DNA of 64,000 nt from Proteromonas lacertae (Eukaryota > Sar > Bigyra > Opalinata > Proteromonadidae), in contig NGBS01000304.1 in assembly GCA_002245135.1 (NCBI GenBank), positions 124,001 to 188,000 of the forward strand, given 5' to 3'. Below the pieces are notes generated by a model. It had not been told where the DNA came from. It searched no databases and saw only the letters and a program-made list of their open reading frames with translations. Positions 4,167 to 53,958 of this stretch are shown in pieces. Position 1 is the stretch's first letter; each line of letters begins with the position of its first letter. Both the position numbers and the translations under genes were made by a program.

Positions 4167-4285
4167 ATAAAATGATAAAACAAAATTAAGAATTTTCTTA
4201 GTATTTTCAAGAATAATCCTACAAAAAAACACATTTAAAAAAATAAGTTTTAAAAATTTAAAATAAATAATTAAGCTCATCCAAG

Positions 4286-5410: not shown

Positions 5411-5529
5411 TATCAAGAAATAAAAAAATATAGAATCAAACCTTCAAGCTTGTATTATTATGTATTTTCTATTTCTTCACAAAAACATAATATACAATGT
5501 AAAATAATAAAGAACGATGAATTATATAC

Positions 5530-7303: not shown

Positions 7304-7682
7304 AAATCAAGAAAAAGAGTAAGTGAAATTTTATTGGTCCAAATGTTGGATTTTTATTTAACAAAAAAAGAAAGGTTTTCACACTTGTGTTGTTTACAAT
7401 AAACAATATTTTTGTAAAATTTTATAGATAAGCTTTCAATCTAGCCATACAATATAAAAAATACTTTGCTGCTATCGTATAGCAGTATATTTATTAATTT
7501 TTAGAAGATCATATTGTTCTTATATTATATTATAAAATAATGATAGTAACAATAGAATTGTGATATAAGTGATGATGTAACGAAGAGTAATCAAGCATAA
7601 TGACGAGAAAATGCAAAGAATAACTTTGAAACGGATAAATGCACAAGCCGAGCTTTTCTACAAATCATTTTTTTCTTAAAAT
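7304..7682. promoter_or_regulatory. Divergent promoter region between the MOCOS-like and first TPR genes
   Basis: This 379-bp gene-free interval separates two genes transcribed away from each other. It contains GAAACGGATA at 7628-7637, about 50 nt before the TPR gene start and close to the GAAACGAAT motif seen upstream of several other genes in the window, and a CAAGCC just after it. No RNA gene was recognised. Confidence 0.4.
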
Positions 7683-29074: not shown

Positions 29075-29136
29075 TGTAAAGCAACATTTTTTAGTGTAAA
29101 ATGGGGTATGAAAATTTACATACACCTAATTTTAAA

Positions 29137-30888
29137 ATGTCTCTATTTACATGTGGAATTGATCTAGGTACTACATATACATGTGTATCACATAAAAAAG
29201 GGGATAAAATTGAGTTTATCGATTTTGATAATGATAAAAGAAACTTCCCATCATATGTAGCTTTTAAAGATGAAGAAATAGTAGTAGGTGAAGTTGCTAA
29301 AAATCAAATATCTAGTAATCTAAAAAATACCATATATGATGCTAAAAGAATGATTGGTCATAAATTCAACGAAGAAGGGATTCAAGAAGATATAAAACAT
29401 TGGGGATTTGCTGTGGAAGAAGACAAAAATGATGGTGGCTGTTTAATTAGAGTAGAATATAAAGGCGAAGAATATAAAGCAAAACCTCAAGAAATATCAA
29501 GTCATGTATTATCAGCTGTATCAAAAAGGTTAATCAATCGTTATGCTATAGAAGAAGGTAAAACAATTCATGCTGTAATAACTGTTCCTGCTTATTTTAA
29601 TAATGAACAAAGAAAAGCAACAATTGAAGCAGGTGAATTAGCTGGTTTGAATGTATTACAGATAATAAATGAACCAACAGCAGCTGCTATTGCATATGGA
29701 TATAAATACTATAAAGGAAAAGAAGATCGAACAATCTTAGTATATGATTTTGGAGGTGGAACATTTGATGTTTCAATAATCGAAATCAAAAATCAAAAGA
29801 TAACTGTAAAAGCAACCGGTGGTGATACTCATTTAGGAGGTGAAGATATTAATCAAAACATTTTTAATTTCATTGTTAAAAGGATAAAAGATGCTAATGT
29901 AGATGTAGATATTACTTTAAATAGAAAGACAGAGTTAATGAAAGCAATAGAAGATACAAAAATTAAATTAAGTAAATATGATGAGAGTGATATATCATCC
30001 AGCATTTTGGAAGATTATGATATAGATCAGGAATTAAGTAGAGAAGATTTTAATCAAATAAATAAAGATATATTTGAAAAGACTATGAAAACAGTCGAAA
30101 AAGTATTAAATGAAAGTGGCTTAAGAAAAAATGATGTTGATGATGCTGTTCTAATTGGAGGAAGTAGTAGAATTCCTAAAATTCATGAATTGATGGAAGA
30201 TTTTTTCAATGGAAAAGTATTAAATCAAGATATAAATCCAGATGAAGCTGTAGCTTATGGTGCAGCAGTCTTAGCTGAAGATATTTTGAATGGAGTTCGA
30301 GAAGAAAAAGACAAAGATGGAAAAATCATATTAATAGACATGAAAACTAACAAAATATTAAATCCAAAAGATAGGATGCTTAAGTGTGTTGACCCTAAAG
30401 AAATAAACTCATGTAGTAGAAAAATGATAATACCAAATCAAAGTAGTGGAAGAAAGATTTTAGTTAGTGAAGGTCTTAAAGAACCAATAGAAGAAAGTAG
30501 TCAAAGAAAACTAATAATTGAAGAAATATTAACTCATAATATTGGTATTGATGTTATTAATAATGAATTTTCACCTATTCTAAAACATGGTAATAGAATT
30601 CCATATACCAACACTGAAAACTATACAACACCTTATGATAATATGAAAGTTGTGTCCATAAAATTCAACGAGGAAATTGATTCACAAGAAAAGAAATATG
30701 TATATATATTTAAGTATTTGTTGAAAATTAAACCACTTCCTGCTGGAGAAGTAAAATGTGATATAAAAATGACTCTGAATAAGAATGGTATACTTAATGT
30801 TGAAATAATACCGAAAAATTCTAATCATTTTGAAAAATGTGATTTAGAATTTGGAAGATGTGACGGAAACATTGTTATAAGAAAATAA
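29137..30888 (+). CDS. Divergent Hsp70-family chaperone lacking lid and EEVD, copy 2
   Basis: Same layout as the gene before it: GIDLGTTYTC, INEPTAAAIAYG, DFGGGTFDVSI, GGSSRIPKIH, an inserted linker of about 85 residues, a weakly conserved beta substrate-binding domain and no lid or EEVD. I place the start at 29137 (MSLFTCG, aligned with copy 1); an in-frame ATG at 29101 would add 12 residues. 583 residues from 29137. The short sequence TTAGTGTAAA occurs twice just before it, at 29071-29080 and 29091-29100. The 3' end lies 20 bp from the end of the convergent giant gene. Confidence 0.82.
   Translation: MSLFTCGIDLGTTYTCVSHKKGDKIEFIDFDNDKRNFPSYVAFKDEEIVVGEVAKNQISSNLKNTIYDAKRMIGHKFNEEGIQEDIKHWGFAVEEDKNDGGCLIRVEYKGEEYKAKPQEISSHVLSAVSKRLINRYAIEEGKTIHAVITVPAYFNNEQRKATIEAGELAGLNVLQIINEPTAAAIAYGYKYYKGKEDRTILVYDFGGGTFDVSIIEIKNQKITVKATGGDTHLGGEDINQNIFNFIVKRIKDANVDVDITLNRKTELMKAIEDTKIKLSKYDESDISSSILEDYDIDQELSREDFNQINKDIFEKTMKTVEKVLNESGLRKNDVDDAVLIGGSSRIPKIHELMEDFFNGKVLNQDINPDEAVAYGAAVLAEDILNGVREEKDKDGKIILIDMKTNKILNPKDRMLKCVDPKEINSCSRKMIIPNQSSGRKILVSEGLKEPIEESSQRKLIIEEILTHNIGIDVINNEFSPILKHGNRIPYTNTENYTTPYDNMKVVSIKFNEEIDSQEKKYVYIFKYLLKIKPLPAGEVKCDIKMTLNKNGILNVEIIPKNSNHFEKCDLEFGRCDGNIVIRK
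29617..29853 (+). repeat. Near-identical tract shared by the two Hsp70 genes, copy 2
   Basis: Partner of 27767-28003; see that entry. The boundaries are sharp: codon usage and protein sequence differ on both sides within a few codons. Confidence 0.8.
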
Positions 30889-30908: not shown

Positions 30909-31163
30909 TTATTTACAATTATTACAAAATGCTTCATTATTCTCTAAATCAACAATGCCACAATTATCGCAGAATATTTTCTTACATCTTGAACAATTCT
31001 ATTAAATAATAGTAAAACAAAAATATACAATAGGTAAAGAGAATTTCTCTAATTCTATATCCTTTTTACACACAACACATTTGAAAGATTTCTTTTTAGT
31101 TGGTGATGATTCTACAACACTTTCTGAAGCAGAGTTTTCCATTCTCATTACACGACTAATTTT
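30909..31163 (-). other. FYVE-like zinc-finger exons at the end of the giant gene
   Basis: On the minus strand the Asp codon before GTATAATA near 31190 joins in phase to a coding stretch that ends at an intron at about 30999-31028 and a final exon with the stop at 30909-30911. Eight cysteines occur as CxxC, CxxC-x4-CxxC, CxxC, with IFCDNC in the middle, as in FYVE and related RUN/FYVE-like fingers. They could alternatively be a separate small gene starting at an ATG near 31149, but the splice phases and donor argue for fusion. Confidence 0.62.
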
Positions 31164-34100
31164 CTATTAAAACATATATAAACAATATATTATACATCAA
31201 ATAAACTATCAATTTTCTTTACATCTTCTTTATTGTTTAATACCTTTTCTTTTGCTGTTACTGTTACTTTGGATACTTTATGAGTTATTTTCTTAGGCGA
31301 TTCAATTGGAGGTAAAGATGACAATGAGTATGAACTGTTTGGTTTGACATTACTATTTTCAATTTCATATTCTGCAGATATTGTTAGAGGAGATATAGGA
31401 ATTGAATCGTTTGAATATCTTTCATTATATAAAGTTGACTTCAATTTGTTAATTTCTTCATTAAGTAGGGTTATTTCATTATCTTTATGTTTTAGTATTT
31501 CATTTAATTTATCCACATCGTCTTTGCATTTACTTTCATTATATGCAATTATTCCCTCTAATTCCATTAATCTTGATTCAAACACACCATTATCACCTTC
31601 ATTTTCTATAATTTTTGACTTTTCTTTATTCTTATTTTCTGAGTTATTAATGCTATTGATCTGTAGCTTATTTCTTAATTCTGCATTCTCTTCCATTAAA
31701 TCTTCGTTTTCTTTCATCAAGTGTTGATTATCATCCAATAGTATACTTATCTTTTCGTCTTTTTCATTATCTTCTTCATTATTTTTTTTCTCATTTACTT
31801 CGACATTTTCTACTTTCACTTTATTTATCATCTTAAGTTCTTCATTCTCTTCTTCTTTTTTCAACAACTCATCTTTTAATTTGGATATCTCTTCATTCAA
31901 TCTTTCTTTCTCTTCTTTATTTATCATTTCTAATTCTTCTTTTAATGATTCAAACTCTTTTAATTTCTTATTTTTTATTTCATTCTCGATTTTCATTTTT
32001 TCTATTTCTTCTATTTTATGTTTTAGTTCTTCTTTTAATTTATCCATCTCTTCTTTATGAATACCTTCCATAACTGTCATCTCACCTTCTAATGCGATTA
32101 ATTTTGATTCTAATATACTATTATCACCTTCATTCTCTATATCTTTTGACATTTCTTTTTTTCGTTTATCTTCTTCTCTCATTGATTCATTATTGTTTTT
32201 CATTATTTCTAATTCATTTCGTAATTCTTTTATCTCTTCTAATAATTCTTCTTTTTCTTTAATTATTTCCGATAACTTGGATTTATCAGCATCTATCACT
32301 TCTTCTTCATATACTTTATTCTCACATGATTCTACTTTCTCTACTTTCACTTTATTCATCATCTTAAGTTCTTCATTTTCTTCCTCTTTCTTCATTAACT
32401 CTTCTTTCAATTTATACATCTCTTCACTCAATCTTTCATTTTCTTCTTTATTTTTTATATCATTTTTTATATCTATTTCTTTTTTCTTTAAATACATTAA
32501 CTCATTCTCTAATTCATTCTTTTCTTTTATTAATTCTTCATTATATAATCTTTCATTCTTATTTTCTTCTTTCAGTTTTTCTATTTCATCAATCATATCA
32601 ACATTTTTATCTCTCATTTCATTCAACTCTTTCTCGATTGATTCTCTCTTATTAAATTCATTTCGAATCAATTCATTATTCTTAACGATTCGTAATTTTT
32701 CTTTTTCTTTCATATCATTCATTTCTTTTAATAATAGATTTATCTCTTTCTCATTATCACATTTATCTTCAGATATATCTTCTTTTTTATTATTTATATT
32801 ACACTTTTCGACATCTTCTAACTTTTTACATAATTCAACTATATCATCTCGTAATCTATCATTCTCATGATTTAATCTCATTAATTCAGTATTTTCTTCT
32901 TTTAATTTCTTCTTATTATCTTTTAATTCTTTTTCTAAACGATTATTCTTATTACGAATCTCATTCATCTTATTAACACTTTCTCTTATTTCACTTTCTT
33001 TTACATTCAAGTTCTTTTTCAATATTTCCATCTCTTTTAATAATCTTTCATTTTCATTCTTTAATAACAATTTTTCTTTTTCTTTTTCTTTTAATTCGTC
33101 AATCTCTTTACTCTTCACTTCTAATTCATTCTTGTAATCTTTCATATCTTTTAACTCATTACTCAATTTCTTATTCTTTTCTAACATATTATACATTATC
33201 TCTTTGTATTTTAAACATTTATTTTCATTTTCTTTCTTGTCATTCACATTCTTTTCTTTCAATTCACATATTTCATTCTTTAATTCTTTCTCTCTATTCA
33301 TATCTTCTTCTCTCATTTCTTTTAATAATCTATCTTTCTCTTCTCTCATTATAATCATTTCAGCTTTTTCAGTCTTTAATCTTTCATTCTCTTTCTTATA
33401 TTTATTTAATCGATTATTTATCTCACACTCATTTTCTTCTTCTAATATCTTCTTTTGTTTCTTTAATTTTTCATTTGATACTCTCATTTGCTTTAATTCT
33501 TTTTCAAATATTTCATTACTCTTTTCCATCTTCATAGTTAAATTATTTATTTCATTTATATATTTTTCATTTTCATTCGTTTTATCTTTCACTTTATTTA
33601 TCTCATCTTTTAATAACTCTTCTAATTTATTCAATCTATTCTTCAATTTATTATTCTTATTTTCCATTTCTTTTAATCTATCATTCAATTTCACATTCTC
33701 TTTATTAACATCATTATCTTCATACATTTTTAGTTTTTCTTCTTTTAACTTATTCTCACTATTCAGCTTTCGTAATAATTCATTAAATTTTTCACTCTTA
33801 TTCTTATTTTCAACTTTCATCTCTTCCAACATTTTCTCTAATTCATTTACTTTAGCATCATCTTCATTTTCTTCTTTACATTTCAATATTTTATGAAGAT
33901 TTTCGATTTCTTTTCGTAAATTATCATTCTCTTTCATCATTACATTATATTTTTCTTCATATTCATCATCATCTTGTCTTAATAATTCACTATTTTCATT
34001 TAAATTATTATTCATTTTTAATATATCTTCTTCGTTTCTATCATCATTCTCATTTATTTCACTTAAACCAAGTATATCTCCTTTATAGATTACATTCTCT

Positions 34101-37100
34101 TCCACTTTCTCTTCTTTTCTTATCTTATTTATCTCATCTTCATATTTCAATATTTCTTTATCTAAGTCTTCTATCTCTTTACTCATTTCTTTGTTTTCTT
34201 TTAATAATTTATCTATTTCTTCTTTATATTCACTTTCTTTACTTTCTTTATTTTCACTTGTCTCATTTAATTTATCACAAAGACTAGAATTCATTCTCAT
34301 CATTTCAAGTAATCCATTGTCTTTGTTATTCAATTCTTTTTCTAATTCTTTATTTTCTTTGACTTTTTTAGCTAAATCATCTTTTAATATCTTTACATCA
34401 TTATTCAGTTTATCAACTTCTTCATTCAACTTCAACTTTGATTCTTCATTTTCTTTATTTATCTTTTCGAATTCTTCTTTTAATGAGTAGAATTCTTTCA
34501 ATTTTTCATCTTTTTCTTTCAGTTTTTCAGATAGATTTAATAGAATTTCTTTTGATTTATTATTTTTCATTTCTTCTTTATTTCTCATTTCTTCTATTAC
34601 ATTTTCTAATTCTTTTATCTTTTCATCTTTATTATCTACTCTTTCATTAGTATCTTCATTTTCTTCTTCATCTAGGACTATATTACTCTCATTATTGTTT
34701 TTCATTATTTCTAATTCATTTCGTAATTCTTTTATCTCTTCTAATAATTCTTCTTTTTCTTTAATTATTTCCGATAACTTGGATTTATCAGCATCTATCA
34801 CTTCTTCTTCATATACTTTATTCTCACATGATTCTACTTTCTCTACTTTCACTTTATTCATCATCTTAAGTTCTTCATTCTCTTCCTCTTTCTTCATTAA
34901 CTCTTCTTTCAATTTATACATCTCTTCACTCAATCTTTCATTTTCTTCTTTATTTTTTATATCATTTTTTATATCTATTTCTTTTTTCTTTAAATACATT
35001 AACTCATTCTCTAATTCATTCTTTTCTTTTATTAATTCTTCATTATATAATCTTTCATTCTTATTTTCTTCTTTCAGTTTTTCTATTTCATCAATCATAT
35101 CAACATTTTTATCTCTCATTTCATTCAACTCTTTCTCGATTGATTCTCTCTTATTAAATTCATTTCGAATCAATTCATTATTCTTAACGATTCGTAATTT
35201 TTCTTTTTCTTTCATATCATTCATTTCTTTTAATAATAGATTTATCTCTTTCTCATTATCACATTTATCTTCAGATATATCTTCTTTTTTATTATTTATA
35301 TTACACTTTTCGACATCTTCTAACTTTTTACATAATTCAACTATATCATCTCGTAATCTATCATTCTCATGATTTAATCTCATTAATTCAGTATTTTCTT
35401 CTTTTAATTTCTTCTTATTATCTTTTAATTCTTTTTCTAAACGATTATTCTTATTACGAATCTCATTCATCTTATTAACACTTTCTCTTATTTCACTTTC
35501 TTTTACATTCAAGTTCTTTTTCAATATTTCCATCTCTTTTAATAATCTTTCATTTTCATTCTTTAATAACAATTTTTCTTTTTCTTTTTCTTTTAATTCG
35601 TCAATCTCTTTACTCTTCACTTCTAATTCATTCTTGTAATCTTTCATATCTTTTAACTCATTACTCAATTTCTTATTCTTTTCTAACATATTATACATTA
35701 TCTCTTTGTATTTTAAACATTTATTTTCATTTTCTTTCTTGTCATTCACATTCTTTTCTTTCAATTCACATATTTCATTCTTTAATTCTTTCTCTCTATT
35801 CATATCTTCTTCTCTCATTTCTTTTAATAATCTATCTTTCTCTTCTCTCATTATAATCATTTCAGCTTTTTCAGTCTTTAATCTTTCATTCTCTTTCTTA
35901 TATTTATTTAATCGATTATTTATCTCACACTCATTTTCTTCTTCTAATATCTTCTTTTGTTTCTTTAATTTTTCATTTGATACTCTCATTTGCTTTAATT
36001 CTTTTTCAAATATTTCATTACTCTTTTCCATCTTCATAGTTAAATTATTTATTTCATTTATATATTTTTCATTTTCATTCGTTTTATCTTTCACTTTATT
36101 TATCTCATCTTTTAATAACTCTTCTAATTTATTCAATCTATTCTTCAATTTATTATTCTTATTTTCCATTTCTTTTAATCTATCATTCAATTTCACATTC
36201 TCTTTATTAACATCATTATCTTCATACATTTTTAGTTTTTCTTCTTTTAACTTATTCTCACTATTCAGCTTTCGTAATAATTCATTAAATTTTTCACTCT
36301 TATTCTTATTTTCAACTTTCATCTCTTCCAACATTTTCTCTAATTCATTTACTTTAGCATCATCTTCATTTTCTTCTTTACATTTCAATTTTATGAAGAT
36401 TTTCGATTTCTTTTCGTAAATTATCATTCTCTTTCATCATTACATTATATTTTTTCATATTCATCATCATCTTGTCTTAATAATTCACTATTTTCATTTA
36501 AATTATTATTCATTTTTAATATATCTTCTTCGTTTCTATCATCATTCTCATTTATTTCACTTAAACCAAGTATATCTCCTTTATAGATTACATTCTCTTC
36601 CACTTTCTCTTCTTTTCTTATCTTATTTATCTCATCTTCATATTTCAATATTTCTTTATCTAAGTCTTCTATCTCTTTACTCATTTCTTTGTTTCTTTTA
36701 ATAATTTATCTATTTCTTCTTTATATTCACTTTCTTTACTTTCTTTATTTTCACTTGTCTCATTTAATTTATCACAAAGACTAGAATTCATTCTCATCAT
36801 TTCAAGTAATCCATTGTCTTTGTTATTCAATTCTTTTTCTAATTCTTTATTTTCTTTGACTTTTTTAGCTAAATCATCTTTTAATATCTTTACATCATTA
36901 TTCAGTTTATCAACTTCTTCATTCAACTTCAACTTTGATTCTTCATTTTCTTTATTTATCTTTCGAATTCTTCTTTTAATGAGTAGAATTCTTTCATTTT
37001 TCATCTTTTTCTTTCAGTTTTTCAGATAGATTTAATAGAATTTCTTTTGATTTATTATTTTTCATTTCTTCTTTATTTCTCATTTCTTCTATTACATTTC

Positions 37101-40100
37101 TAATTCTTTTATCTTTTCATCTTTATTATCTACTCTTTCATTAGTATCTTCATTTTCTTCTTCATCTAGGACTATATTACTCTCATTATTGTTTTTCATT
37201 ATTTCTAATTCATTTCGTAATTCTTTTATCTCTTCTATAATTCTTCTTTTTCTTTAATTATTTCCGATAACTTGGATTTATCAGCATCTATCACTTCTTC
37301 TTCATATACTTTATTCTCACATGATTCTACTTTCTCTACTTTCACTTTATTCATCATCTTAAGTTCTTCATTCTCTTCCTCTTTCTTCATTAACTCTTCT
37401 TTCAATTTATACATCTCTTCACTCAATCTTTCATTTTCTTCTTTATTTTTTATATCATTTTTTATATCTATTTCTTTTTTCTTTAAATACATTAACTCAT
37501 TCTCTAATTCATTCTTTTCTTTTATTAATTCTTCATTATATAATCTTTCATTCTTATTTTCTTCTTTCAGTTTTTCTATTTCATCAATCATATCAACATT
37601 TTTATCTCTCATTTCATTCAACTCTTTCTCGATTGATTCTCTCTTATTAAATTCATTTCGAATCAATTCATTATTCTTAACGATTCGTAATTTTTTCTTT
37701 TTCTTTCATATCATTCATTTCTTTTAATAATAGATTTATCTCTTTCTCATTATCACATTTATCTTCAGATATATCTTCTTTTTTATTATTTATATTACAC
37801 TTTTCGACATCTTCTAACTTTTTACATAATTCAACTATATCATCTCGTAATCTATCATTCTCATGATTTAATCTCATTAATTCAGTATTTTCTTCTTTTA
37901 ATTTCTTCTTATTATCTTTTAATTCTTTTTCTAAACGATTATTCTTATTACGAATCTCATTCATCTTATTAACACTTTCTCTTATTTCACTTTCTTTTAC
38001 ATTCAAGTTCTTTTTCAATATTTCCATCTCTTTTAATAATCTTTCATTTTCATTCTTTAATAACAATTTTTCTTTTTCTTTTTCTTTTAATTCGTCAATC
38101 TCTTTACTCTTCACTTCTAATTCATTCTTGTAATCTTTCATATCTTTTAACTCATTACTCAATTTCTTATTCTTTTCTAACATATTATACATTATCTCTT
38201 TGTATTTTAAACATTTATTTTCATTTTCTTTCTTGTCATTCACATTCTTTTCTTTCAATTCACATATTTCATTCTTTAATTCTTTCTCTCTATTCATATC
38301 TTCTTCTCTCATTTCTTTTAATAATCTATCTTTCTCTTCTCTCATTATAATCATTTCAGCTTTTTCAGTCTTTAATCTTTCATTCTCTTTCTTATATTTA
38401 TTTAATCGATTATTTATCTCACACTCATTTTCTTCTTCTAATATCTTCTTTTGTTTCTTTAATTTTTCATTTGATACTCTCATTTGCTTTAATTCTTTTC
38501 AAATATTTCATTACTCTTTTCCATCTTCATAGTTAAATTATTTATTTCATTTATATATTTTTCATTTTCATTCGTTTTATCTTTCACTTTATTTATCTCA
38601 TCTTTTAATAACTCTTCTAATTTATTCAATCTATTCTTCAATTTATTATTCTTATTTTCCATTTCTTTTAATCTATCATTCAATTTCACATTCTCTTTAT
38701 TAACATCATTATCTTCATACATTTTTAGTTTTTCTTCTTTTAACTTATTCTCACTATTCAGCTTTCGTAATAATTCATTAAATTTTTCACTCTTATTCTT
38801 ATTTTCAACTTTCATCTCTTCCAACATTTTCTCTAATTCATTTACTTTAGCATCATCTTCATTTTCTTCTTTACATTTCAATATTTTATGAAGATTTTCG
38901 ATTTCTTTTCGTAAATTATCATTCTCTTTCATCATTACATTATATTTTTCTTCATATTCATCATCATCTTGTCTTAATAATTCACTATTTTCATTTAAAT
39001 TATTATTCATTTTTAATATATCTTCTTCGTTTCTATCATCATTCTCATTTATTTCACTTAAACCAAGTATATCTCCTTTATAGATTACATTCTCTTCCAC
39101 TTTCTCTTCTTTTCTTAGTTTATTCAATTCATTTTCATATTTCAATATTTCATTATGTAATTCCTCATTCTCTTTCTTCAATTCTTTTAATTTGTTTTTC
39201 TTTTCACTACTAAACTGACTAACATTATTCTTTAATTTTTCAAATATATTACTATTTTCTTCAGTACTTTCAATTATCAATGGAAGATTAACAGAACCTC
39301 TTCTTGAGAAAAAATTATTATTATTATTATTAGTTTGTTGTTTCTGTAATTTTACATTTGCTATATCAGTTTTCATCTTTTCTATTTCCTTCAAATTGTC
39401 TTTATAACTACAAATTAACGAATTAATTATATTATCTTCTTTAGATAACTTATAAATCAAATCAATGACCTCATTACTTGGATTTGAATGAGATGCGAAA
39501 TATTCTGAAATATATATAGGTAGTATATTTTCCGACTGAATTATTGGAATTCCAAGTATTTCTATATCATTAGATATGAATTCAAAATGATTTCTATGAA
39601 GTTGTAAGATTGATGAGATATTCATTTCTGTTTCTTTCATTATTTCATATTGACTTTTAAGCTTTGCTTGTAGTTCATCATTCTCAGCTTCTAACTTCAT
39701 CATTTTTTCAATAGATTCATCCAACGCATTAGATAAATATAATACTTGATCACTATCTGCTGTTGATATTAATTCATTTTCACTGGCAGACAAATGAGAT
39801 ACACTTTCAAAGACTATTATGTCAAAATTTATCAATTCATTTGTTTGAATGGTTTTATTACTTTCATTAGTAATTTGAATATTATTAATTTGTGATCTTA
39901 AATCATCTATTTCTCTTTCAAATTGATTGTTTTCTTCAATCATTTTTGTTATTCTATTGTTCAATAATTCTTCATTTTTCTCTTTTTCATTCTTTATTCA
40001 TTCAATTGATTCTCTAATTCAGTAATTTTCTTTTTATTATCTTCTTCCATTTCTTTTACTTTGGTTGTATATTCATTTTCATTATCTTTTAGTATCTTTT

Positions 40101-43100
40101 CAACATCATTTAATTTTATTACCATATAACTCAAATTCTCCTCAAGATCTTTCTTTTCATTCTTCAAAGCAGAAATAATTATATTTTGTTTATCAATTTT
40201 TGCTTTATTATAGTCTTTTAATTTATTATATTCAATTTCTCTATCATCTTTTTCTTGGATTAAGTTTTTATTTGTTTCTTTAATACTTTCTAATTCAGTC
40301 TTTATACTTCTTATTTTCATTTCATTTTCATCATTAATATCCACTAGCATTTTTGATTTTTCATTCAATTCTTCATTTATATTCTCCAATTTTGATATTC
40401 TACTCATTAGACTATCAACTTTATTCTTCATAAACTCATATTCAACCTTTATATTACACATCTGTTGGTTCAAATCTTCAATATACATTAGACTTTTCTC
40501 CTTTTCACATTTAATATATTCAACTTTTTCTTCCATTACTTCAAATGAATTATCTAACTTACTTTCTTCTACCATACTATTATCATTACTACAACTTTCT
40601 TCAATTTTACTATTATCAAATGATTTTATAAGATTTTTGATTCTTCTATTATCTTTCTTCAATAATGAAATCGAATTGTTTTTCTTTTCAATCTCATCTT
40701 TTGATTCTGAAATAATATACCTAAATTCTGTAATATCTATTGCTAGTTTTTCATTACTATTATTCAGTTCTTCCAATTCACAATTTAATTCGTTTATTGT
40801 AAACATATTATCGTTTGAAAGAGCTTCAAATTCTTTTTCCATATTTATCTTCTTCTTTTCTAATTCATCTTTAGAGACTTTTATTTCTTCTATTTCCTTT
40901 GTTAAATTGCTTATTTCTAAATTTTTATTTTCTATTATTTCTTCTTTCTGTTTCAATATAACTTCATCATTACTCTTTATTTCATTTTTAATCTTTATTA
41001 ATTCATACTTTTCATACCTCAATGTGTCTATTTCTTCTTCTTTCATAACTATTTCTTCATTTATTATTTGTAACTCATTTTTATTCTTATCTAATAATTC
41101 ATTTAACTCAATCATTATTCTTTCATTATTATTTATTTCTGTTTCTTTAGATTGTAATATAATGTTAAGGTTATTAATACTTTCATTGATTTGTATATTT
41201 TCTTCTTCAACTTCTTTCATTCTACCTTCAATTTATTAAATGTCTCTCTCATCATATCATTTTCTTTCTTTACTTGATCTATTTCATTTGCAAATTTGTA
41301 TTATTATCACTCAACTTTGTAATTTGATTTTTCAATTCGTTATTTTCAAATTTCAAAATATTATTATATTCCATTAAAGATGTAACATCACTTGTTAACT
41401 TTTCTATATTTTCACTGAATTCTTTATTACTAATTTCTAATGCTTCTTTATCATTTTTAATTCTCACATAATCATCTTCAATACAAGCTTTATCTAAGTA
41501 TAATTTCGCAAGCTCTTCTTTAATTTCAATTATTTTTTCAGATAATATTTTGAATTATACACTTCATCATCATAGTTTTTGGTTATTCTATTTAACACAT
41601 CATTTTTACAACTAAGTTCATAATTAAGACTAGATATAACTTCATTCAATCTTCGTAATTCATCTTTCAATTTATTTAACTCATCTTCATTTATTTCAAC
41701 TTTTTCTTTTACTTTCATTTCTTCTAATTCAACTTCATTTTTTACATCTTTTACTTTACTCATTTCTTCACTTTCTTTATTCTCACTTTCTAACTTATAT
41801 CGACTTAATTCTTCTTTCAATTCTTCATTCTCTTTCAATAAATCTTCTAATCGATCAGCATCTAACACTTTTATACTTTCTTTAACTTCTTCTTTATTAC
41901 TTTCTTTATCTTTTAGTTCATCATAGTATTTCTTTTCATTCTTTACACTCTCGTTTAATAACATCTCTAATCGATTGTTTTCTTCATTCAATCTTCGTAA
42001 TTCATCTTTCAATTTATTTAACTCATCTTCATTTACTTCAACTTTTTCTTTTACTTTCATTTCTTCGAATTCAACTTCATTTTTTACATCTTTTACTTTA
42101 CTCATTTCTTCACTTTCTTTATTCTCACTTTCTAACTTATATCGACTTAATTCTTCTTTCAATTCTTCATTCTCTTTCAATAAATCTTCTAATCGATCAG
42201 CATCTAACACTTTTATACTTTCTTTAACTTCTTCTTTATTATTTTCTTTATCTTTTAGTTCATCATAGTATTTCTTTTCATTCTTTACACTCTCGTTTAA
42301 TAACATCTCTAATCGATTGTTTTCTTCATTCAATCTTCGTAATTCATCTTTCAATTTATTTAACTCATCTTCATTTACTTCAACTTTTTCTTTTACTTTC
42401 ATTTCTTCGAATTCAACTTCATTTTTTACATCTTTTACTTTACTCATTTCTTCACTTTCTTTATTCTCACTTTCTAACTTATATCGACTTAATTCTTCTT
42501 TCAATTCTTCATTCTCTTTCAATAAATCTTCTAATCGATCAGCATCTAACACTTTTATACTTTCTTTAACTTCTTCTTTATTATTTTCTTTATCTTTTAG
42601 TTCATCATAGTATTTCTTTTCATTCTTTACACTCTCGTTTAATAACATCTCTAATCGATTGTTTTCTTCATTCAATCTTCGTAATTCATCTTTCAATTTA
42701 TTTAACTCATCTTCATTTACTTCAACTTTTTCTTTTACTTTCATTTCTTCGAATTCAACTTCATTTTTTACATCTTTTACTTTACTCATTTCTTCACTTT
42801 CTTTATTCTCACTTTCTAACTTATATCGACTTAATTCTTCTTTCAATTCTTCATTCTCTTTCAATAAATCTTCTAAATCGATCAGCATCTAACACTTTTA
42901 TACTTTCTTTAACTTCTTCTTTATTATTTTCTTTATCTTTTAGTTCATCATAGTATTTCTTTTCATTCTTTACACTCTCGTTTAATAACATCTCTAATCG
43001 ATTGTTTTCTTCATTCAATCTTCGTAATTCATCTTTCAATTTATTTAACTCATCTTCATTTACTTCAACTTTTTCTTTTACTTTCATTTCATCAAGTTCT

Positions 43101-46100
43101 TTCTTCATTCTTCATTTTCTTTCAATACATTACCACTTCTTCTCGAATCTTTTCTATATCTTCTTCACTTTCATATATTTTTCTTCTATATCTTCATTCA
43201 TATTCTATCATTTCCAACATTTCTTTGTTTAATCGTAACTCTTCTTCTTCATTCAATTTTCTTTTCTATTTCATTACAAAACCAAGTTTTTCACTTTTAT
43301 AGATAAACTATATTATTCTTCTTTATTACTTTGCATTTTCATTTTCTTTAATCTTTCTTTCAATTTTCATTCTCTTTCAATAATCTTCTATCGTCAGCAT
43401 CTAACTTTTTATCTTTCTTTTATTCTTCTTTATTTATTTTCTTTATCTTTTAGTTCATCATAGTATTCTTTTCATTCTTTACACTCTCGTTTAATAACAT
43501 CTCTAATCGATTGTTTTCTTCATTCAATCTTCGTAATTCATCTTTCAATTTATTTAACTCATCTTCATTTACTTCAACTTTTCTTTTACTTTCATTTCTT
43601 CGAATTCAACTTCATTTTTTACATCTTTTACTTTACTCATTTCTTCACTTTCTTTATTCTCACTTTCTAACTTATATCGACTTAATTCTTCTTTCAATTC
43701 TTCATTCTCTTTCAATAAAATCTTCTAATCGATCAGCATCTAACACTTTTTATACTTTCTTTAACTTCTTCTTTATTATTTTCTTTATCTTTTAGTTCAT
43801 CATAGTATTCTTTTCATTCTTTTACACTCTCGTTTAATAACATCTCTAATCGATTGTTTTCTTCATTCAATCTTCGTAATTCATCTTTCAATTTATTTAA
43901 CTCATCTTCATTTACTTCACTTTTTCTTTTACTTTCATTTCTTCGAATTCAACTTCATTTTTTACATCTTTTACTTACTCATTTCTTCACTTTCTTTATT
44001 CTCACTTTCTAACTTATATCGACTTAATTCTTCTTTCAATTCTTCATTCTCTTTCAATAAATCTTCTAATCGATCAGCATCTAACACTTTTATACTTTCT
44101 TTAACTTCTTCTTTATTATTTTCTTTATCTTTTAGTTCATCATAGTATTTCTTTTCATTTTTACACTCTCGTTTAATAACATCTCTAATCGATTGTTTTC
44201 TTCATTCAATCTTCGTATTCATCTTTCAATTTATTTAACTCATCTTCATTTACTTCAACTTTTTCTACTTTTTTCATCTTTTTTCTTCATTTTCTTTCAA
44301 TAACATTACCACTTCTTCTCGAATCTTTCTATATTTCTTCACTTTCATATATTTCTTCTTCTATTCTTCATTCATTCTATCATTTCAACATTTCTTTGTT
44401 TATCTACTTTCTTTCATTCATTCTTCACTTTCTATTTCATTACTCAATTCTTCACTTTATAATCTATTATTCTTCTATTACTTTGCATTTCATTTCTTAA
44501 TCTTCTTCAATCTCATTCTCTTTCAATAAATCTTCTAATCGATCAGCATCTAACACTTTTATACTTTCTTTAACTTCTTCTTTATTATTTTCTTTATCTT
44601 TTAGTTCATCATAGTATTTCTTTTCATTCTTTACACTCTCGTTTAATAACATCTCTAATCGATTGTTTTCTTCATTCAATCTTCGTAATTCATCTTTCAA
44701 TTTATTTAACTCATCTTCATTTACTTCAACTTTTTCTTTTACTTTCATTTCTTCGAATTCAACTTCATTTTTTACATCTTTTACTTTACTCATTTCTTCA
44801 CTTTCTTTATTCTCACTTTCTAACTTATATCGACTTAATTCTTCTTTCAATTCTTCATTCTCTTTCAATAAATCTTCTAATCGATCAGCATCTAACACTT
44901 TTATACTTTCTTTAACTTCTTCTTTATTATTTTCTTTATCTTTTAGTTCATCATAGTATTTCTTTTCATTCTTTACACTCTCGTTTAATAACATCTCTAA
45001 TCGATTGTTTTCTTCATTCAATCTTCGTAATTCATCTTTCAATTTATTTAACTCATCTTCATTTACTTCAACTTTTTCTTTTACTTTCATTTCTTCGAAT
45101 TCAACTTCATTTTTTACATCTTTTACTTTACTCATTTCTTCACTTTCTTTATTCTCACTTTCTAACTTATATCGACTTAATTCTTCTTTCAATTCTTCAT
45201 TCTCTTTCAATAAATCTTCTAATCGATCAGCATCTAACACTTTTATACTTTCTTTAACTTCTTCTTTATTATTTTCTTTATCTTTTAGTTCATCATAGTA
45301 TTTCTTTTCATTCTTTACACTCTCGTTTAATAACATCTCTAATCGATTGTTTTCTTCATTCAATCTTCGTAATTCATCTTTCAATTTATTTAACTCATCT
45401 TCATTTACTTCAACTTTTTCTTTTACTTTCATTTCTTCGAATTCAACTTCATTTTTTACATCTTTTACTTTACTCATTTCTTCACTTTCTTTATTCTCAC
45501 TTTCTAACTTATATCGACTTAATTCTTCTTTCAATTCTTCATTCTCTTTCAATAAATCTTCTAATCGATCAGCATCTAACACTTTTATACTTTCTTTAAC
45601 TTCTTCTTTATTATTTTCTTTATCTTTTAGTTCATCATAGTATTTCTTTTCATTCTTTACACTCTCGTTTAATAACATCTCTAATCGATTGTTTTCTTCA
45701 TTCAATCTTCGTAATTCATCTTTCAATTTATTTAACTCATCTTCATTTACTTCAACTTTTTCTTTTACTTTCATTTCTTCGAATTCAACTTCATTTTTTA
45801 CATCTTTTACTTTACTCATTTCTTCACTTTCTTTATTCTCACTTTCTAACTTATATCGACTTAATTCTTCTTTCAATTCTTCATTCTCTTTCAATAAAAT
45901 CTTCTAATCGATCAGCATCTAACACTTTTATACTTTCTTTAACTTCTTCTTTATTATTTTCTTTATCTTTTAGTTCATCATAGTATTTCTTTTCATTCTT
46001 TACACTCTCGTTTAATAACATCTCTAATCGATTGTTTTCTTCATTCAATCTTCGTAATTCATCTTTCAATTTATTTAACTCATCTTCATTTACTTCAACT

Positions 46101-49100
46101 TTTTCTTTTACTTTCATTTCTTCGAATTCAACTTCATTTTTTACATCTTTTACTTTACTCATTTCTTCACTTTCTTTATTCTCACTTTCTAACTTATATC
46201 GACTTAATTCTTCTTTCAATTCTTCATTCTCTTTCAATAAATCTTCTAATCGATCAGCATCTAACACTTTTATACTTTCTTTAACTTCTTCTTTATTATT
46301 TTCTTTATCTTTTAGTTCATCATAGTATTTCTTTTCATTCTTTACACTCTCGTTTAATAACATCTCTAATCGATTGTTTTCTTCATTCAATCTTCGTAAT
46401 TCATCTTTCAATTTATTTAACTCATCTTCATTTACTTCAACTTTTTCTTTTACTTTCATTTCTTCGAATTCAACTTCATTTTTTACATCTTTTACTTTAC
46501 TCATTTCTTCACTTTCTTTATTCTCACTTTCTAACTTATATCGACTTAATTCTTCTTTCAATTCTTCATTCTCTTTCAATAAATCTTCTAATCGATCAGC
46601 ATCTAACACTTTTATACTTTCTTTAACTTCTTCTTTATTATTTTCTTTATCTTTTAGTTCATCATAGTATTTCTTTTCATTCTTTACACTCTCGTTTAAT
46701 AACATCTCTAATCGATTGTTTTCTTCATTCAATCTTCGTAATTCATCTTTCAATTTATTTAACTCATCTTCATTTACTTCAACTTTTTCTTTTACTTTCA
46801 TTTCTTCGAATTCAACTTCATTTTTTACATCTTTTACTTTACTCATTTCTTCACTTTCTTTATTCTCACTTTCTAACTTATATCGACTTAATTCTTCTTT
46901 CAATTCTTCATTCTCTTTCAATAAATCTTCTAATCGATCAGCATCTAACACTTTTATACTTTCTTTAACTTCTTCTTTATTATTTTCTTTATCTTTTAGT
47001 TCATCATAGTATTTCTTTTCATTCTTTACACTCTCGTTTAATAACATCTCTAATCGATTGTTTTCTTCATTCAATCTTCGTAATTCATCTTTCAATTTAT
47101 TTAACTCATCTTCATTTACTTCAACTTTTTCTTTTACTTTCATTTCTTCGAATTCAACTTCATTTTTTACATCTTTTACTTTACTCATTTCTTCACTTTC
47201 TTTATTCTCACTTTCTAACTTATATCGACTTAATTCTTCTTTCAATTCTTCATTCTCTTTCAATAAATCTTCTAATCGATCAGCATCTAACACTTTTATA
47301 CTTTCTTTAACTTCTTCTTTATTATTTTCTTTATCTTTTAGTTCATCATAGTATTTCTTTTCATTCTTTACACTCTCGTTTAATAACATCTCTAATCGAT
47401 TGTTTTCTTCATTCAATCTTCGTAATTCATCTTTCAATTTATTTAACTCATCTTCATTTACTTCAACTTTTTCTTTTACTTTCATTTCTTCTAATTCAAC
47501 TTCATTTTTTACATCTTTTACTTTACTCATTTCTTCACTTTCTTTATTCTCACTTTCTAACTTATATCGACTTAATTCTTCTTTCAATTCTTCATTCTCT
47601 TTCAATAAATCTTCTAATCGATCAGCATCTAACACTTTTATACTTTCTTTAACTTCTTCTTTATTATTTTCTTTATCTTTTAGTTCATCATAGTATTTCT
47701 TTTCATTCTTTACACTCTCGTTTAATAACATCTCTAATCGATTGTTTTCTTCATTCAATCTTCGTAATTCATCTTTCAATTTATTTAACTCATCTTCATT
47801 TACTTCAACTTTTTCTTTTACTTTCATTTCTTCGAATTCAACTTCATTTTTTACATCTTTTACTTTACTCATTTCTTCACTTTCTTTATTCTCACTTTCT
47901 AACTTATATCGACTTAATTCTTCTTTCAATTCTTCATTCTCTTTCAATAAATCTTCTAATCGATCAGCATCTAACACTTTTATACTTTCTTTAACTTCTT
48001 CTTTATTATTTTCTTTATCTTTTAGTTCATCATAGTATTTCTTTTCATTCTTTACACTCTCGTTTAATAACATCTCTAATCGATTGTTTTCTTCATTCAA
48101 TCTTCGTAATTCATCTTTCAATTTATTTAACTCATCTTCATTTACTTCAACTTTTTCTTTTACTTTCATTTCTTCGAATTCAACTTCATTTTTTACATCT
48201 TTTACTTTACTCATTTCTTCACTTTCTTTATTCTCACTTTCTAACTTATATCGACTTAATTCTTCTTTCAATTCTTCATTCTCTTTCAATAAATCTTCTA
48301 ATCGATCAGCATCTAACACTTTTATACTTTCTTTAACTTCTTCTTTATTATTTTCTTTATCTTTTAGTTCATCATAGTATTTCTTTTCATTCTTTACACT
48401 CTCGTTTAATAACATCTCTAATCGATTGTTTTCTTCATTCAATCTTCGTAATTCATCTTTCAATTTATTTAACTCATCTTCATTTACTTCAACTTTTTCT
48501 TTTACTTTCATTTCTTCGAATTCAACTTCATTTTTTACATCTTTTACTTTACTCATTTCTTCACTTTCTTTATTCTCACTTTCTAACTTATATCGACTTA
48601 ATTCTTCTTTCAATTCTTCATTCTCTTTCAATAAATCTTCTAATCGATCAGCATCTAACACTTTTATACTTTCTTTAACTTCTTCTTTATTATTTTCTTT
48701 ATCTTTTAGTTCATCATAGTATTTCTTTTCATTCTTTACACTCTCGTTTAATAACATCTCTAATCGATTGTTTTCTTCATTCAATCTTCGTAATTCATCT
48801 TTCAATTTATTTAACTCATCTTCATTTACTTCAACTTTTTCTTTTACTTTCATTTCTTCGAATTCAACTTCATTTTTTACATCTTTTACTTTACTCATTT
48901 CTTCACTTTCTTTATTCTCACTTTCTAACTTATATCGACTTAATTCTTCTTTCAATTCTTCATTCTCTTTCAATAAATCTTCTAATCGATCAGCATCTAA
49001 CACTTTTATACTTTCTTTAACTTCTTCTTTATTATTTTCTTTATCTTTTAGTTCATCATAGTATTTCTTTTCATTCTTTACACTCTCGTTTAATAACATC

Positions 49101-52100
49101 TCTAATCGATTGTTTTCTTCATTCAATCTTCGTAATTCATCTTTCAATTTATTTAACTCATCTTCATTTACTTCAACTTTTTCTTTTACTTTCATTTCAT
49201 CAAGTTCTTTCTTCATTTCTTCATTTTCTTTCAATAACATTACCACTTCTTCTCGAATCTTTTCTATATCTTCTTCACTTTCATATATTTCTTCTTCTAT
49301 ATCTTCATTCATATTCTCATCATTTCCAAACATTTCTTTGTTTAATCGTAACTCTTCTTCTTCATTCAATTCTTCATTTCTATTTCATTACACAAACCAA
49401 GTTTTTCACTTTTATAGATAACTATATTATTCTTCTTTATTACTTTGGCATTTTCCATTTTCTTTAATCTTTCTTTCAATTCTTCATTCTCTTTCAATAA
49501 ATCTTCTAATCGATCAGCATCTAACACTTTTATACTTTCTTTAACTTCTTCTTTATTATTTTCTTTATCTTTTAGTTCATCATAGTATTTCTTTTCATTC
49601 TTTACACTCTCGTTTAATAACATCTCTAATCGATTGTTTTCTTCATTCAATCTTCGTAATTCATCTTTCAATTTATTTAACTCATCTTCATTTACTTCAA
49701 CTTTTTCTTTTACTTTCATTTCTTCGAATTCAACTTCATTTTTTACATCTTTTACTTTACTCATTTCTTCACTTTCTTTATTCTCACTTTCTAACTTATA
49801 TCGACTTAATTCTTCTTTCAATTCTTCATTCTCTTTCAATAAATCTTCTAATCGATCAGCATCTAACACTTTTATACTTTCTTTAACTTCTTCTTTATTA
49901 TTTTCTTTATCTTTTAGTTCATCATAGTATTTCTTTTCATTCTTTACACTCTCGTTTAATAACATCTCTAATCGATTGTTTTCTTCATTCAATCTTCGTA
50001 ATTCATCTTTCAATTTATTTAACTCATCTTCATTTACTTCAACTTTTTCTTTTACTTTCATTTCTTCGAATTCAACTTCATTTTTTACATCTTTTACTTT
50101 ACTCATTTCTTCACTTTCTTTATTCTCACTTTCTAACTTATATCGACTTAATTCTTCTTTCAATTCTTCATTCTCTTTCAATAAATCTTCTAATCGATCA
50201 GCATCTAACACTTTTATACTTTCTTTAACTTCTTCTTTATTATTTTCTTTATCTTTTAGTTCATCATAGTATTTCTTTTCATTCTTTACACTCTCGTTTA
50301 ATAACATCTCTAATCGATTGTTTTCTTCATTCAATCTTCGTAATTCATCTTTCAATTTATTTAACTCATCTTCATTTACTTCAACTTTTTCTTTTACTTT
50401 CATTTCTTCGAATTCAACTTCATTTTTTACATCTTTTACTTTACTCATTTCTTCACTTTCTTTATTCTCACTTTCTAACTTATATCGACTTAATTCTTCT
50501 TTCAATTCTTCATTCTCTTTCAATAAATCTTCTAATCGATCAGCATCTAACACTTTTATACTTTCTTTAACTTCTTCTTTATTATTTTCTTTATCTTTTA
50601 GTTCATCATAGTATTTCTTTTCATTCTTTACACTCTCGTTTAATAACATCTCTAATCGATTGTTTTCTTCATTCAATCTTCGTAATTCATCTTTCAATTT
50701 ATTTAACTCATCTTCATTTACTTCAACTTTTTCTTTTACTTTCATTTCTTCGAATTCAACTTCATTTTTTACATCTTTTACTTTACTCATTTCTTCACTT
50801 TCTTTATTCTCACTTTCTAACTTATATCGACTTAATTCTTCTTTCAATTCTTCATTCTCTTTCAATAAATCTTCTAATCGATCAGCATCTAACACTTTTA
50901 TACTTTCTTTAACTTCTTCTTTATTATTTTCTTTATCTTTTAGTTCATCATAGTATTTCTTTTCATTCTTTACACTCTCGTTTAATAACATCTCTAATCG
51001 ATTGTTTTCTTCATTCAATCTTCGTAATTCATCTTTCAATTTATTTAACTCATCTTCATTTACTTCAACTTTTTCTTTTACTTTCATTTCTTCGAATTCA
51101 ACTTCATTTTTTACATCTTTTACTTTACTCATTTCTTCACTTTCTTTATTCTCACTTTCTAACTTATATCGACTTAATTCTTCTTTCAATTCTTCATTCT
51201 CTTTCAATAAATCTTCTAATCGATCAGCATCTAACACTTTTATACTTTCTTTAACTTCTTCTTTATTATTTTCTTTATCTTTTAGTTCATCATAGTATTT
51301 CTTTTCATTCTTTACACTCTCGTTTAATAACATCTCTAATCGATTGTTTTCTTCATTCAATCTTCGTAATTCATCTTTCAATTTATTTAACTCATCTTCA
51401 TTTACTTCAACTTTTTCTTTTACTTTCATTTCATCAAGTTCTTTCTTCATTTCTTCATTTTCTTTCAATAACATTACCACTTCTTCTCGAATCTTTTCTA
51501 TATCTTCTTCACTTTCATATATTTCTTCTTCTATATCTTCATTCATATTCTCATCATTTCCAAACATTTCTTTGTTTAATCGTAACTCTTCTTCTTCATT
51601 CAATTCTTCATTTTCTATTTCATTACACAAACCAAGTTTTTCACTTTTATAGATAACTATATTATTCTTCTTTATTACTTTGGCATTTTCCATTTTCTTT
51701 AATCTTTCTTTCAATTCTTCATTCTCTTTCAATAAATCTTCTAATCGATCATTATCATCATCGACAGTAAGTTCATTTTCACTCAATTTGTTCTTCAATA
51801 ATTCAATTTCTTCTTCCAAGTTACACTTATCTTCATTCAATTCATTGATTTCATTCTCTAAGTTTTTAATCTTTTCATTATCTATCACTATATCTCCATT
51901 ACTGTTATTATCCTTCATTTTCTTTTCTGTTTCTTTTTTATTAAACATCTCCTTTAACTCAACAAGTGTTGGAAGTTTCAATTTATTTTCACTTTTATTT
52001 TCATCTTTTTTCATTTTCAATAAACTATTCTCTTTCGCTAATTCATGATTATTTTTAGCCAAATCATTTATTTCTCTTTCTTTCTTTTCTATAATGTTAT

Positions 52101-53958
52101 TTAGATCATCAATTTTATATTCTAATTCTTTTAATTCTTTCCCATTGTTATTACTGTTGAAAAATACATTTTCTTCTTTTATTTTTTTGTCATTCATCTT
52201 TTCATCATCTAACTTCTTCTTTAACTCAATAATTGTTTTATTCAACTCGATAACTCTGTTATTTAAACTATCATTATCATCTTCTAACATTTCATTAAGT
52301 TCTTTCATTTCTTGTAGATCTTTTTCTAGTTGCTTTACTCTATCTTCTTTTTCTTCTATTTCTGTGTTATTATTATTATTTTGTTGCTTATTTTCATTTT
52401 CTAATTTAACTTTCTTTTCTTCTTCATCATCATCGTCTAATAAAATCTCTTCTTCTTCTGAATCATCACTTGAATTGCTTTGATTTTTATTCTTTTCTAC
52501 CGTTTCTTCTTCATTTTCTAATGGAATTTCTTCTTCATCATCGCTTGAATTATCATTTTCTTCTTCTATTTTTGCTACTTCTTTTTCTAATGTAGTTTCA
52601 TTAACATTCTTCATCTCTTCACTCTCTTTATTCTCTTTTTCCACTTTCAACATGTTTAGCTCTTCTTTTAAATCTTCATTCTCTGATTTTAATGTCTTTA
52701 TTTCTTCCTTTAATTCATTCATTAATTTTTCATAATTATCATCTTTATTTTCTTCTTTCATAATATCACTTTCACTGTTCAATTCATTCATCATCTCATC
52801 ACTATTTTCATTAACTATTCTCAACTTTTCTTCTAATTCACTATTAGATGGCATATTTTCAGCTTGAACACTTTCAAGCCTATGTAATTTCTCTTTCAAT
52901 TTCTTACAATTCAAACATTCATCTTCATTATCTGTTTTGTCATTATCTTCTTCATTTGAAATATAGACATCTTCATTTGTCATTTCATAATTTTCTCTGT
53001 ATTGTGACATTTTATTTTTCATATTCTCTAACTCAGTGTATAACATATGTACTACAGATTTAGACACTGTTTTCATTGTACTAAACTGTTTATCATATTG
53101 AGAATATATTAAATTCTCCTTCAATTCATACTGATGCTTATATAAATCAAATTGAAGTTGTACTTTATAGTTATCCATCTTCAATGATTCATTCTCTTTT
53201 GATATATAAGACAATTTCTTTTCATAACTACTAATAGTTTCATTAATTGTCTTTTCGTGATCTTTTATAGTCTTTTCTGATAATTTCTCTGTTTCTTTAA
53301 ATTTTGAGATAATTTCATTCAATCTTTTTATCTCACTCTCTTTATTTAACGATTCAAGTTCTAAAGCTCGAATATCGGCTTGAAGCTTTTTCACTTTTTC
53401 ATCTTTTTCTTTACATAAATCACAAGCATATGGTAAACTTTTATCATAAGTGATGGTGAATTGTAAATGATTAGCTTTATCATTCATTACTTTAACAATT
53501 GAGTCAAGGTTTGCTGTTGATATTTTCGATGGAATTTGATTCAATTCTTTCTTGTATTCTTCTAGACTTTTCTTTGTTACATCAACTTCTCCAATTCGTC
53601 CTGAAATGAAAGATAACAAGTTATCCACTTCAATAGTTTCACCTGTGTATGTAAGATCAGAATATTTGTTTGAAATAACCTCATTGTATTTCTCTTCATA
53701 AAGTTGTTTTTCTGACTCTAGACGCTTGATTGTTCTAAGGAACTTTCGTTTTTCTTGTTCGAACTGTCTTGTAACTTTTTTTAATTCCTCAGTTTGTTGA
53801 ACAACCACTAATTTGTATTGCTGTGTTTGTAAATATGGATCAGTGATGTCTGGTGATATGTATTTCACATAATCAGGAATGGCTCCAAATCCCTATAATT
53901 AAAGATAAAAAAAAATAAATACTGTATCCAGGCTAGACTTTGTCTGCTGATCACTCAT
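30909..53958 (-). CDS. Giant coiled-coil protein with C-terminal FYVE-like zinc finger (frame broken by scattered small indels)
   Basis: From the N-terminus: exon 1 at 53923-53958, a 30-nt intron, then unique coiled coil to about 51720, an array of 342-bp units to about 41640, unique coiled coil to 39115, three tandem ~2.5-kb units to 32190, a unique stretch, and two small last exons (about 31029-31163 and 30909-30998) joined in phase by GTAT..ATAG introns. The last 75 residues hold CVVC, then CSRCKKIFCDNCG, then CNNC, the eight-cysteine spacing of a FYVE finger, but without the basic RHHCR core that binds PI3P. Long intact frames are 49366-53868 (1500 residues), 45881-49369 (1162) and 31190-36427 (1745); the others are broken by one-base changes in A/T runs. 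About 7,650 residues if continuous. EEA1-type or golgin-type tethers are the closest analogues. Similarity to other coiled coils is compositional only. Confidence 0.7.
32190..39115 (-). repeat. Three tandem ~2.5-kb coding repeats in the giant gene
   Basis: In protein order the units start at about 39115, 36617 and 34119; landmark sequences recur 2,497-2,502 bp apart. The third unit is cut short at about 32190 and continues into unique sequence. Copies look identical apart from one- and two-base indels. A full unit codes 834 residues of Lys/Glu/Asn-rich coiled coil, beginning RKEEKVEENVIYKG. Confidence 0.85.
41640..51720 (-). repeat. Higher-order array of 342-bp (114-residue) coding repeats
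   Basis: Twenty-eight copies of a 342-bp unit, each coding 114 residues (start ENEELKEELSRYKLESENK), fall in groups of 6, 14, 3 and 5 in protein order. Each group is preceded by a different ~290-bp cap element (51430-51720, 49195-49480, 44270-44510, 43085-43390) coding an acidic segment with IVIYKSEKLGLCNEIE. Units 45900-49360 are almost letter-perfect copies; the main substitution seen changes one Phe to Leu (47486 and 41727). Confidence 0.88.
43085..44520 (-). other. Indel-dense stretch inside the 342-bp array
   Basis: Against neighbouring perfect units this 1.4-kb stretch has dozens of single-base losses, nearly all in A/T runs, plus a few gains, and almost no substitutions. All frames are broken, while 3.5 kb beside it (45900-49360) is clean. 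This is the pattern of uncorrected long-read sequence rather than of a decayed gene. Confidence 0.7.

Follow-up and report, generated by a model that had tools for sequence, protein, structure and literature searches.

What kind of protein is encoded by a 23-kb chain of long open reading frames in the genome of Proteromonas lacertae, and does its C-terminal zinc-finger-like tip place it in a known family? The chain runs along the minus strand from 53958 to 30909 of a 64,000-nucleotide stretch of DNA (C266:124001-188000, hereafter the window), taken from an assembly of 50.2 Mb in 1,181 contigs that its introns and genes mark as eukaryotic, and an earlier note on this DNA proposed that it encodes an EEA1-like coiled-coil protein of about 7,650 residues that ends in a FYVE-type finger and acts as an oversized endosomal or Golgi tether. 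Our analysis retains the giant rod grown by repeats and does not support the kinship with EEA1 and FYVE proteins. That the locus is a single real gene, which encodes a giant coiled-coil rod and an eight-cysteine tip of no assigned class, is well supported, and we consider the best explanation, at a probability of roughly 0.6, to be a giant lineage-specific scaffold or tether, the zinc tip of which binds protein, encoded by one gene of four exons.

The gene and its exon junctions

Judging from the sequence, the frames very probably belong to a single minus-strand gene (53958-30909) with four exons, the predicted parts of which are as follows:

53923..53958, minus strand: exon 1, the ATG exon, 12 codons (MSDQQTKSSLDT), ending at a phase-0 junction
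53893..53922, minus strand: intron 1, 30 nt, GTAT...TATAG, one of just three intron-like sites that the coding strand has over 23 kb
31196..53892, minus strand: giant exon 2, most of it coiled coil, its frame broken in the window contig by one-base insertions or deletions (indels)
31164..31195, minus strand: intron 2, 32 nt, GTATAAT...TTAATAG, the splicing of which removes a stop at 31192-31190
31029..31163, minus strand: exon 3, with the remainder of a linker and the first CxxC of the finger
30999..31028, minus strand: intron 3, 30 nt, GTATATT...TTAATAG
30909..30998, minus strand: exon 4, with the remaining three CxxC pairs of the finger, then the stop (30911-30909)

The N-terminal exon had already been recognized in the earlier note; the ATG exon and the 30-nt intron behind it are confirmed here, and the frame that follows opens with GFGAIPDYVKY. 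At the 3′ end, translation would either stop at 31192-31190, if intron 2 is left unspliced, or continue after its removal through exon 3, intron 3, and exon 4 to the stop at 30911-30909. We searched with a strict pattern for introns (GTAT first, a total length of 27-41 nt, no less than 85% A+T, and AATAG, TTTAG, TATAG, or ATTAG last), which has three sites on the coding strand of the 23-kb span (53922, 31195, and 31028), located where the frame needs them, and none on the opposite strand of the span. Second-order Markov copies led us to expect a mean of 0.3 sites for the span, and 0.024 for the 512-nt tail, which holds two; over the whole window, the pattern occurs 12 times on the plus strand and 20 times on the minus strand. 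With a looser pattern, several sites bridge frames at other genes of the window, and both 3′ introns of this gene join open frames, while intron 1 was bound to fail, since the test covered 60 nt and exon 1 has fewer. Between 53892 and 31196, the coding strand has no site in the intron style of this genome. Thus, the proposal that the frames are joined by in-phase introns is well supported for the ends of the gene, with three introns, but not for its interior, where the frame changes mostly through one-base indels.

The C-terminal finger and its classification

Across two short introns, the gene would encode a finger with eight cysteines, CVVC-x14-CSRC-x4-CDNC-x11-CNNC-K-stop, which is very probably in the reading frame of the rod, given the predicted junctions, and which follows an S/T/P/K-rich linker of about 100 residues that is not coil. 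The eight cysteines and the CxxC-x4-CxxC spacing had been described before and are confirmed, as is a stop at 30911-30909. Their assignment to the FYVE type did not hold when the spliced finger was compared with FYVE and FYVE-like profiles, the check that had been suggested for it. Pfam lists 11 families at E <= 1, all of them below cut-off: IBR_1 (PF22191) scores 20.7 bits against a cut-off of 27, IBR (PF01485) 17.1 against 24.3, Cript 15.7, FYVE_2 (PF02318) 15.4 against 27.2, and FYVE itself (PF01363) 10.6 against 27.8, with an E value of 0.65. NCBIfam gives no match for either the finger or the N-terminal 797 residues.

As a control, we used nine permutations of the residues of the finger with the cysteines held in place. 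FYVE_2 was listed for four of them (20.3, 14.3, 13.6, and 11.9 bits), one of which beats the real finger, so that the likeness to this family can come from the spacing of the cysteines alone. IBR_1 was listed for two (16.5 and 12.6 bits), and FYVE and Cript for none. Since the real finger surpasses all nine shuffles on IBR_1, IBR, Cript, and FYVE, some of its non-cysteine residues do look cross-brace-like, but, on these sequence profiles, no known family is reached.

The motifs tell the same story. One source (PMC2837644) gives WxxD, R(R/K)HHCR, and RVC as the hallmarks of FYVE domains, and by eye all three are absent here, with KKKSFKCVVC, SLPINCSRC, and EAFCNNC in their places. The earlier remark that the basic core for binding phosphatidylinositol 3-phosphate (PI3P) is missing is supported. 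Elsewhere in this genome, an exon-by-exon profile search listed 38 FYVE matches, 32 of them over the cut-off and some on duplicated contigs; none lies in the window, for which the spliced finger was scanned separately. The genome also has nine FYVE_2 matches, none over the cut-off, and the one that we opened, on contig C432, shows PHD-type-like fingers by eye. The finger of this locus was found in its own genome only here and on contig C788 (18,111 bp), where the 3′ half of the gene and its flank were assembled a second time, although only two candidates were scored and split exons could escape such a search. Among the 15 PDB sequences listed at E <= 10, the best is a LIM domain (E 0.036), followed by RING proteins; rabphilin (E 1.2) and RIM2 (E 4.5) appear weakly and far down, and neither EEA1 nor another classical FYVE protein is named among those listed. 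No homologue of the finger was found at E <= 1 among proteins of about 505-1610 residues, with six candidates.

Comparison with known systems leads to a similar picture. IBR fingers have a C-x4-C first and a histidine ligand, and both features are absent here; although IBR_1 provides the best Pfam score and stays above both shuffles listed for it, the match is below cut-off and covers only 33 residues. EEA1 shares the general plan, an eight-cysteine finger at the C-terminus of a long coiled-coil rod, but the rod described here has several times its length, the finger stands behind a low-complexity linker, and the PI3P motifs are lacking; according to PMC8491906, the coil of EEA1 spans residues 74-1348, about 200 nm, and is joined to a dimeric FYVE domain. 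An N-terminal C2H2 finger of the EEA1 type is not evident either: Pfam lists no zinc-finger family at E <= 1 in the 797 N-terminal residues, and by eye the two CxxC motifs found there are not followed by a histidine pair. The likeness to EEA1 therefore does not amount to kinship. The Rab-binding FYVE_2 fingers of rabphilin, RIM, melanophilin, and SPIRE have similar cysteine spacing, but the Pfam likeness is weak and is surpassed by one of the nine shuffles, as described above. PMC11231147 marks SHD2 as part of FYVE_2 in SPIRE, and there is no room here for such a C-terminal flank because only a single residue follows the last cysteine. The same source states that FYVE_2 domains in proteins such as SPIRE bind Rab GTPases, which, by analogy, may serve as a model for the partner of this tip and not as a claim of membership.

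The rod, its repeats, and the frame breaks

The rod itself and the segments around it are arranged as follows:

52901..53892, minus strand: N-terminal ~330 residues, a weakly structured start and then a long helix, with two CxxC motifs
41640..51516, minus strand: array of a 342-bp (114-residue) repeat, 27 copies of at least 300 aligned bases in four blocks
39200..41650, minus strand: non-repeat coil of ~800 residues, with four one-base indels relative to C788, where the frame is open
31500..39185, minus strand: a ~2.5-kb coil segment in triplicate, with starts at 39185, 36688, and 34190 and the first ~2.0 kb in common
31196..31420, minus strand: the low-complexity S/T/P/K-rich linker, of which the first ~75 residues lie here and the rest in exon 3 (by eye)

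Long coiled-coil rod proteins are generally recognized by an extended 3.5-residue period and few prolines and glycines, and both are present here. All five pieces examined have the hydrophobic period, with best values of 3.46-3.54 and z scores of 5.0, 5.3, 8.2, 14.5, and 14.9 against 200 shuffles per piece, and they contain 0 to 1.5% proline and 0.1 to 1.5% glycine. AlphaFold, run without an alignment on two 342-bp units, predicts helix except at residues 89-95, with a mean predicted local distance difference test score (pLDDT) of 85.9. The long coiled-coil frames described earlier are thus confirmed. The Pfam match to DUF6026 in the frame of C788 (61.5 bits, cut-off 26.6, eight stretches, the best of them in repeated coil) probably reflects coil composition, and matches to NadN_nucleosid_C (18.1 bits), DUF641 (15.5), SlyX (16.3), and Cas9-BH (12.5), all below cut-off, were set aside as coil noise. 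Giantin and CENP-E are examples of golgin-type and giant coiled-coil proteins. Such proteins have the very long helical rod and small end modules in common with this one, but no sequence kinship with them was found, and the rod described here has undergone recent nested tandem expansion.

For the N-terminal 297 residues, AlphaFold gives a mean pLDDT of 62.3, with a helix at 154-296 and no globular domain predicted confidently, and a comparison with PDB at E <= 1 returned a single type of protein, in two entries (E 0.23-0.24). The N-terminal 320 residues have no homologue at E <= 0.01 among proteins of about 830-2640 residues (5,400 candidates). In its own genome, the N-terminal protein sequence occurs at this locus only, and the corresponding DNA also has two weak, short matches of 72-76% in coil sequence. 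The two CxxC motifs, CDLC (53424-53413) and CLNC (52917-52906), lie in or beside the N-terminal coil, where a zinc-mediated dimer contact is conceivable.

The repeats seen in the earlier note are confirmed, and the rod has been lengthened by their nested tandem expansion. Each of the four array blocks opens with one variant copy of the 342-bp unit, followed by 5, 13, 2, and 3 regular copies, and the last block also has a partial copy; a looser count finds 28 copies, and 19 of the 23 regular ones have no substitutions relative to the reference unit. C788 has 14 copies, in three blocks that each open with one variant, followed by 6, 2, and 3 regular copies, so the last two blocks agree between the contigs and the preceding block differs (13 vs 6). 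The ~2.5-kb segment is present only once in C788, with a start that resembles the first window copy and an end that resembles the last, which fits either a shorter allele or assembly collapse. In a synonymous/non-synonymous comparison of the ~2.5-kb copies, the differences proved to be nearly all at the edge of the segment. By simple arithmetic, the protein would have about 7,650 residues by the window, about 6,000 with one segment, and about 5,200 with the shorter block of C788 as well. The figure of 7,650 proposed earlier thus fits the window contig and belongs to that contig alone, as repeat copy number differs between the two, and the exact length is not established.

The frame of the window contig changes near 49.39, 45.89, 44.5-42.9, 41.55, 41.29-41.23, 40.0, 38.49, 37.69, and 37.23-36.4 kb, mostly through one-base indels, and at two of these places, 44.5-42.9 and 37.2-36.4 kb, there are many. 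In three-frame translation, identical protein text resumes in another frame at each interior joint. C788, which has the same order of rod, linker, finger, and flank, allows a direct comparison. In a 2.84-kb comparison with the non-repeat coil at its centre, the contigs differ by one substitution and four one-base indels, and C788 is open at all four in a frame of 1,923 codons (2488-8256), so that these breaks look like errors of the window contig; conversely, the window segment that corresponds to a break at 8231-8256 of C788 is open. In 6.9 kb of flank, there are no substitutions and 20 indels, namely one TA unit and 19 single bases, each of which, by eye, lengthens or shortens a run. Within the array, the copies at 44834-44497 and 44023-43682 have no substitutions and four and six one-base homopolymer indels, respectively, while the copy at 43681-43348 is messier, with four substitutions and 10 indels. 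Most simply, the interior breaks are sequencing or assembly errors. FYVE hits with identical scores on the contig pairs C756/C390, C284/C954, C242/C620, and C680/C995, together with the redundancy of C788, indicate that the assembly probably holds unmerged duplicates.

Around the gene, a tandem pair of divergent HSP70-like genes lies on the plus strand at 27290-30888, the first of which has one full-length match of 53% and 42-51% for the other 119 among the matches listed; about 20 nt separate the end of the second from the stop of the giant gene, so that these two genes converge. At 58139-59413, a predicted gene contains a 519-bp direct duplication, by eye, with shared end text in the frames 58139-58507 and 58523-59026. 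The stretch 61156-63999, also read by eye, encodes a large protein of membrane type, which has a transmembrane-like stretch, an acidic tail rich in K/E/N, and a frame that runs past the end of the window.

Alternative explanations and biological meaning

The main rival to a scaffold or tether is a membrane-free structural role, in which the protein would be a filament or cytoskeletal scaffold, of the cortical or centrosomal fibre type, and the finger a module for assembly or protein docking. We hold this to be a tentative alternative, somewhat less probable than a tether or scaffold but to be taken seriously, since the finger has no PI3P-binding motif and the genome contains another giant coil, even longer, without a visible finger. 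This second locus, on the plus strand of contig C1051, has open frames from 173,002 (the start of the stretch examined) to 210,750, of 789, 4291, 1103, 1855, 707, and 3809 codons, with internal repeats, frame breaks, and matches that recur about every 6.7-8 kb; no finger was seen in the unspliced frames at the end of the last frame, after which there is a stop, or within the next ~2.2 kb. This genome thus has at least two giant coils grown by repeats, and here they are independent of such a tip, as C1051 shows none. However, nothing ties the present protein to a known fibre protein, and no cytoskeletal Pfam domain exceeded its cut-off in the pieces scanned. A separate 69-residue gene for the finger, directly downstream of a rod gene, is unlikely: exon 3 does have two ATGs ahead of the finger, and the rod would end at 31190 with intron 2 unspliced, but this would leave only about 40 nt between the rod stop and the first ATG of the finger for a 3′ end and a promoter, and intron 2 is in the style of this genome and restores the frame exactly.

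Two further readings seem very improbable to us. A true EEA1/FYVE-family tether with a divergent domain could appeal to the cysteine spacing, CxxC-x14-CxxC-x4-CxxC-x11-CxxC, which is like that of FYVE and is placed at the C-terminus after a long coil, and to the listing of FYVE for the real finger and for no shuffle, but both FYVE scores are far below their cut-offs, shuffles reach FYVE_2, recognizable FYVE domains abound elsewhere in the genome, and neither the hallmarks nor the N-terminal finger are present. A decayed pseudogene with real frame breaks would explain the breaks (at least nine sites in the window contig and three in C788), but it is hardly compatible with breaks that are mostly one-base indels, with two unit copies that differ only in homopolymers, with the open frame of C788 at the four non-repeat breaks, or with a flank that varies between contigs in the same manner, by run length and without substitutions.

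Several points weigh against our preferred explanation of a giant scaffold or tether encoded by one gene. The strict intron pattern was defined after its three sites were known, so its statistics are somewhat flattering, and the gene ends and introns are predictions from DNA. C788 has breaks of its own (518-561, 2488-2518, and 8231-8256), an unbroken frame from ATG to finger is found in neither contig, and the repeat numbers of the two disagree; the support from C788 is strong but not independent, as both contigs come from one assembly. No homologue backs a function, within limited length ranges and with a search able to detect only relatives that share short words, and the zinc binding and partner of the tip are guesses. 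Among the titles and beginnings of abstracts listed for the open-access PMC literature, none describes such a protein.

Under the explanation that we favour, this is probably a lineage-specific rod protein, mostly helical, with a short and weakly structured head, a flexible linker, and a zinc-finger-like tip. In a cross-brace, treble-clef-like fold, the eight cysteines may coordinate two zinc ions, and the rod would dimerize and serve as a long spacer. Instead of PI3P, the tip would bind a protein partner, perhaps a further scaffold protein or a small GTPase, in which case the molecule would work as a long scaffold or tether. The rod could change length readily by unequal exchange between near-identical repeats. 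A coiled coil rises 0.1485 nm per residue, so that some 5,200-7,650 residues give a computed rod of roughly 0.75-1.1 micrometres. A more specific version, with a tethering or scaffolding rod of that length, allelic variation through recent unequal exchange of 114-residue and ~830-residue modules, and a tip of a zinc-finger type not in Pfam, is doubtful.

The locus also carries two warnings: in AT-rich repeat genes of an assembly, frame changes are easily taken for introns, and an eight-cysteine pattern by itself does not make a FYVE domain. If the length holds, a single exon of Proteromonas lacertae would encode nearly all of a very long coiled-coil rod, and the rod would offer a natural test of how length determines reach; because the repeat copies are so alike, its length may differ between individuals.

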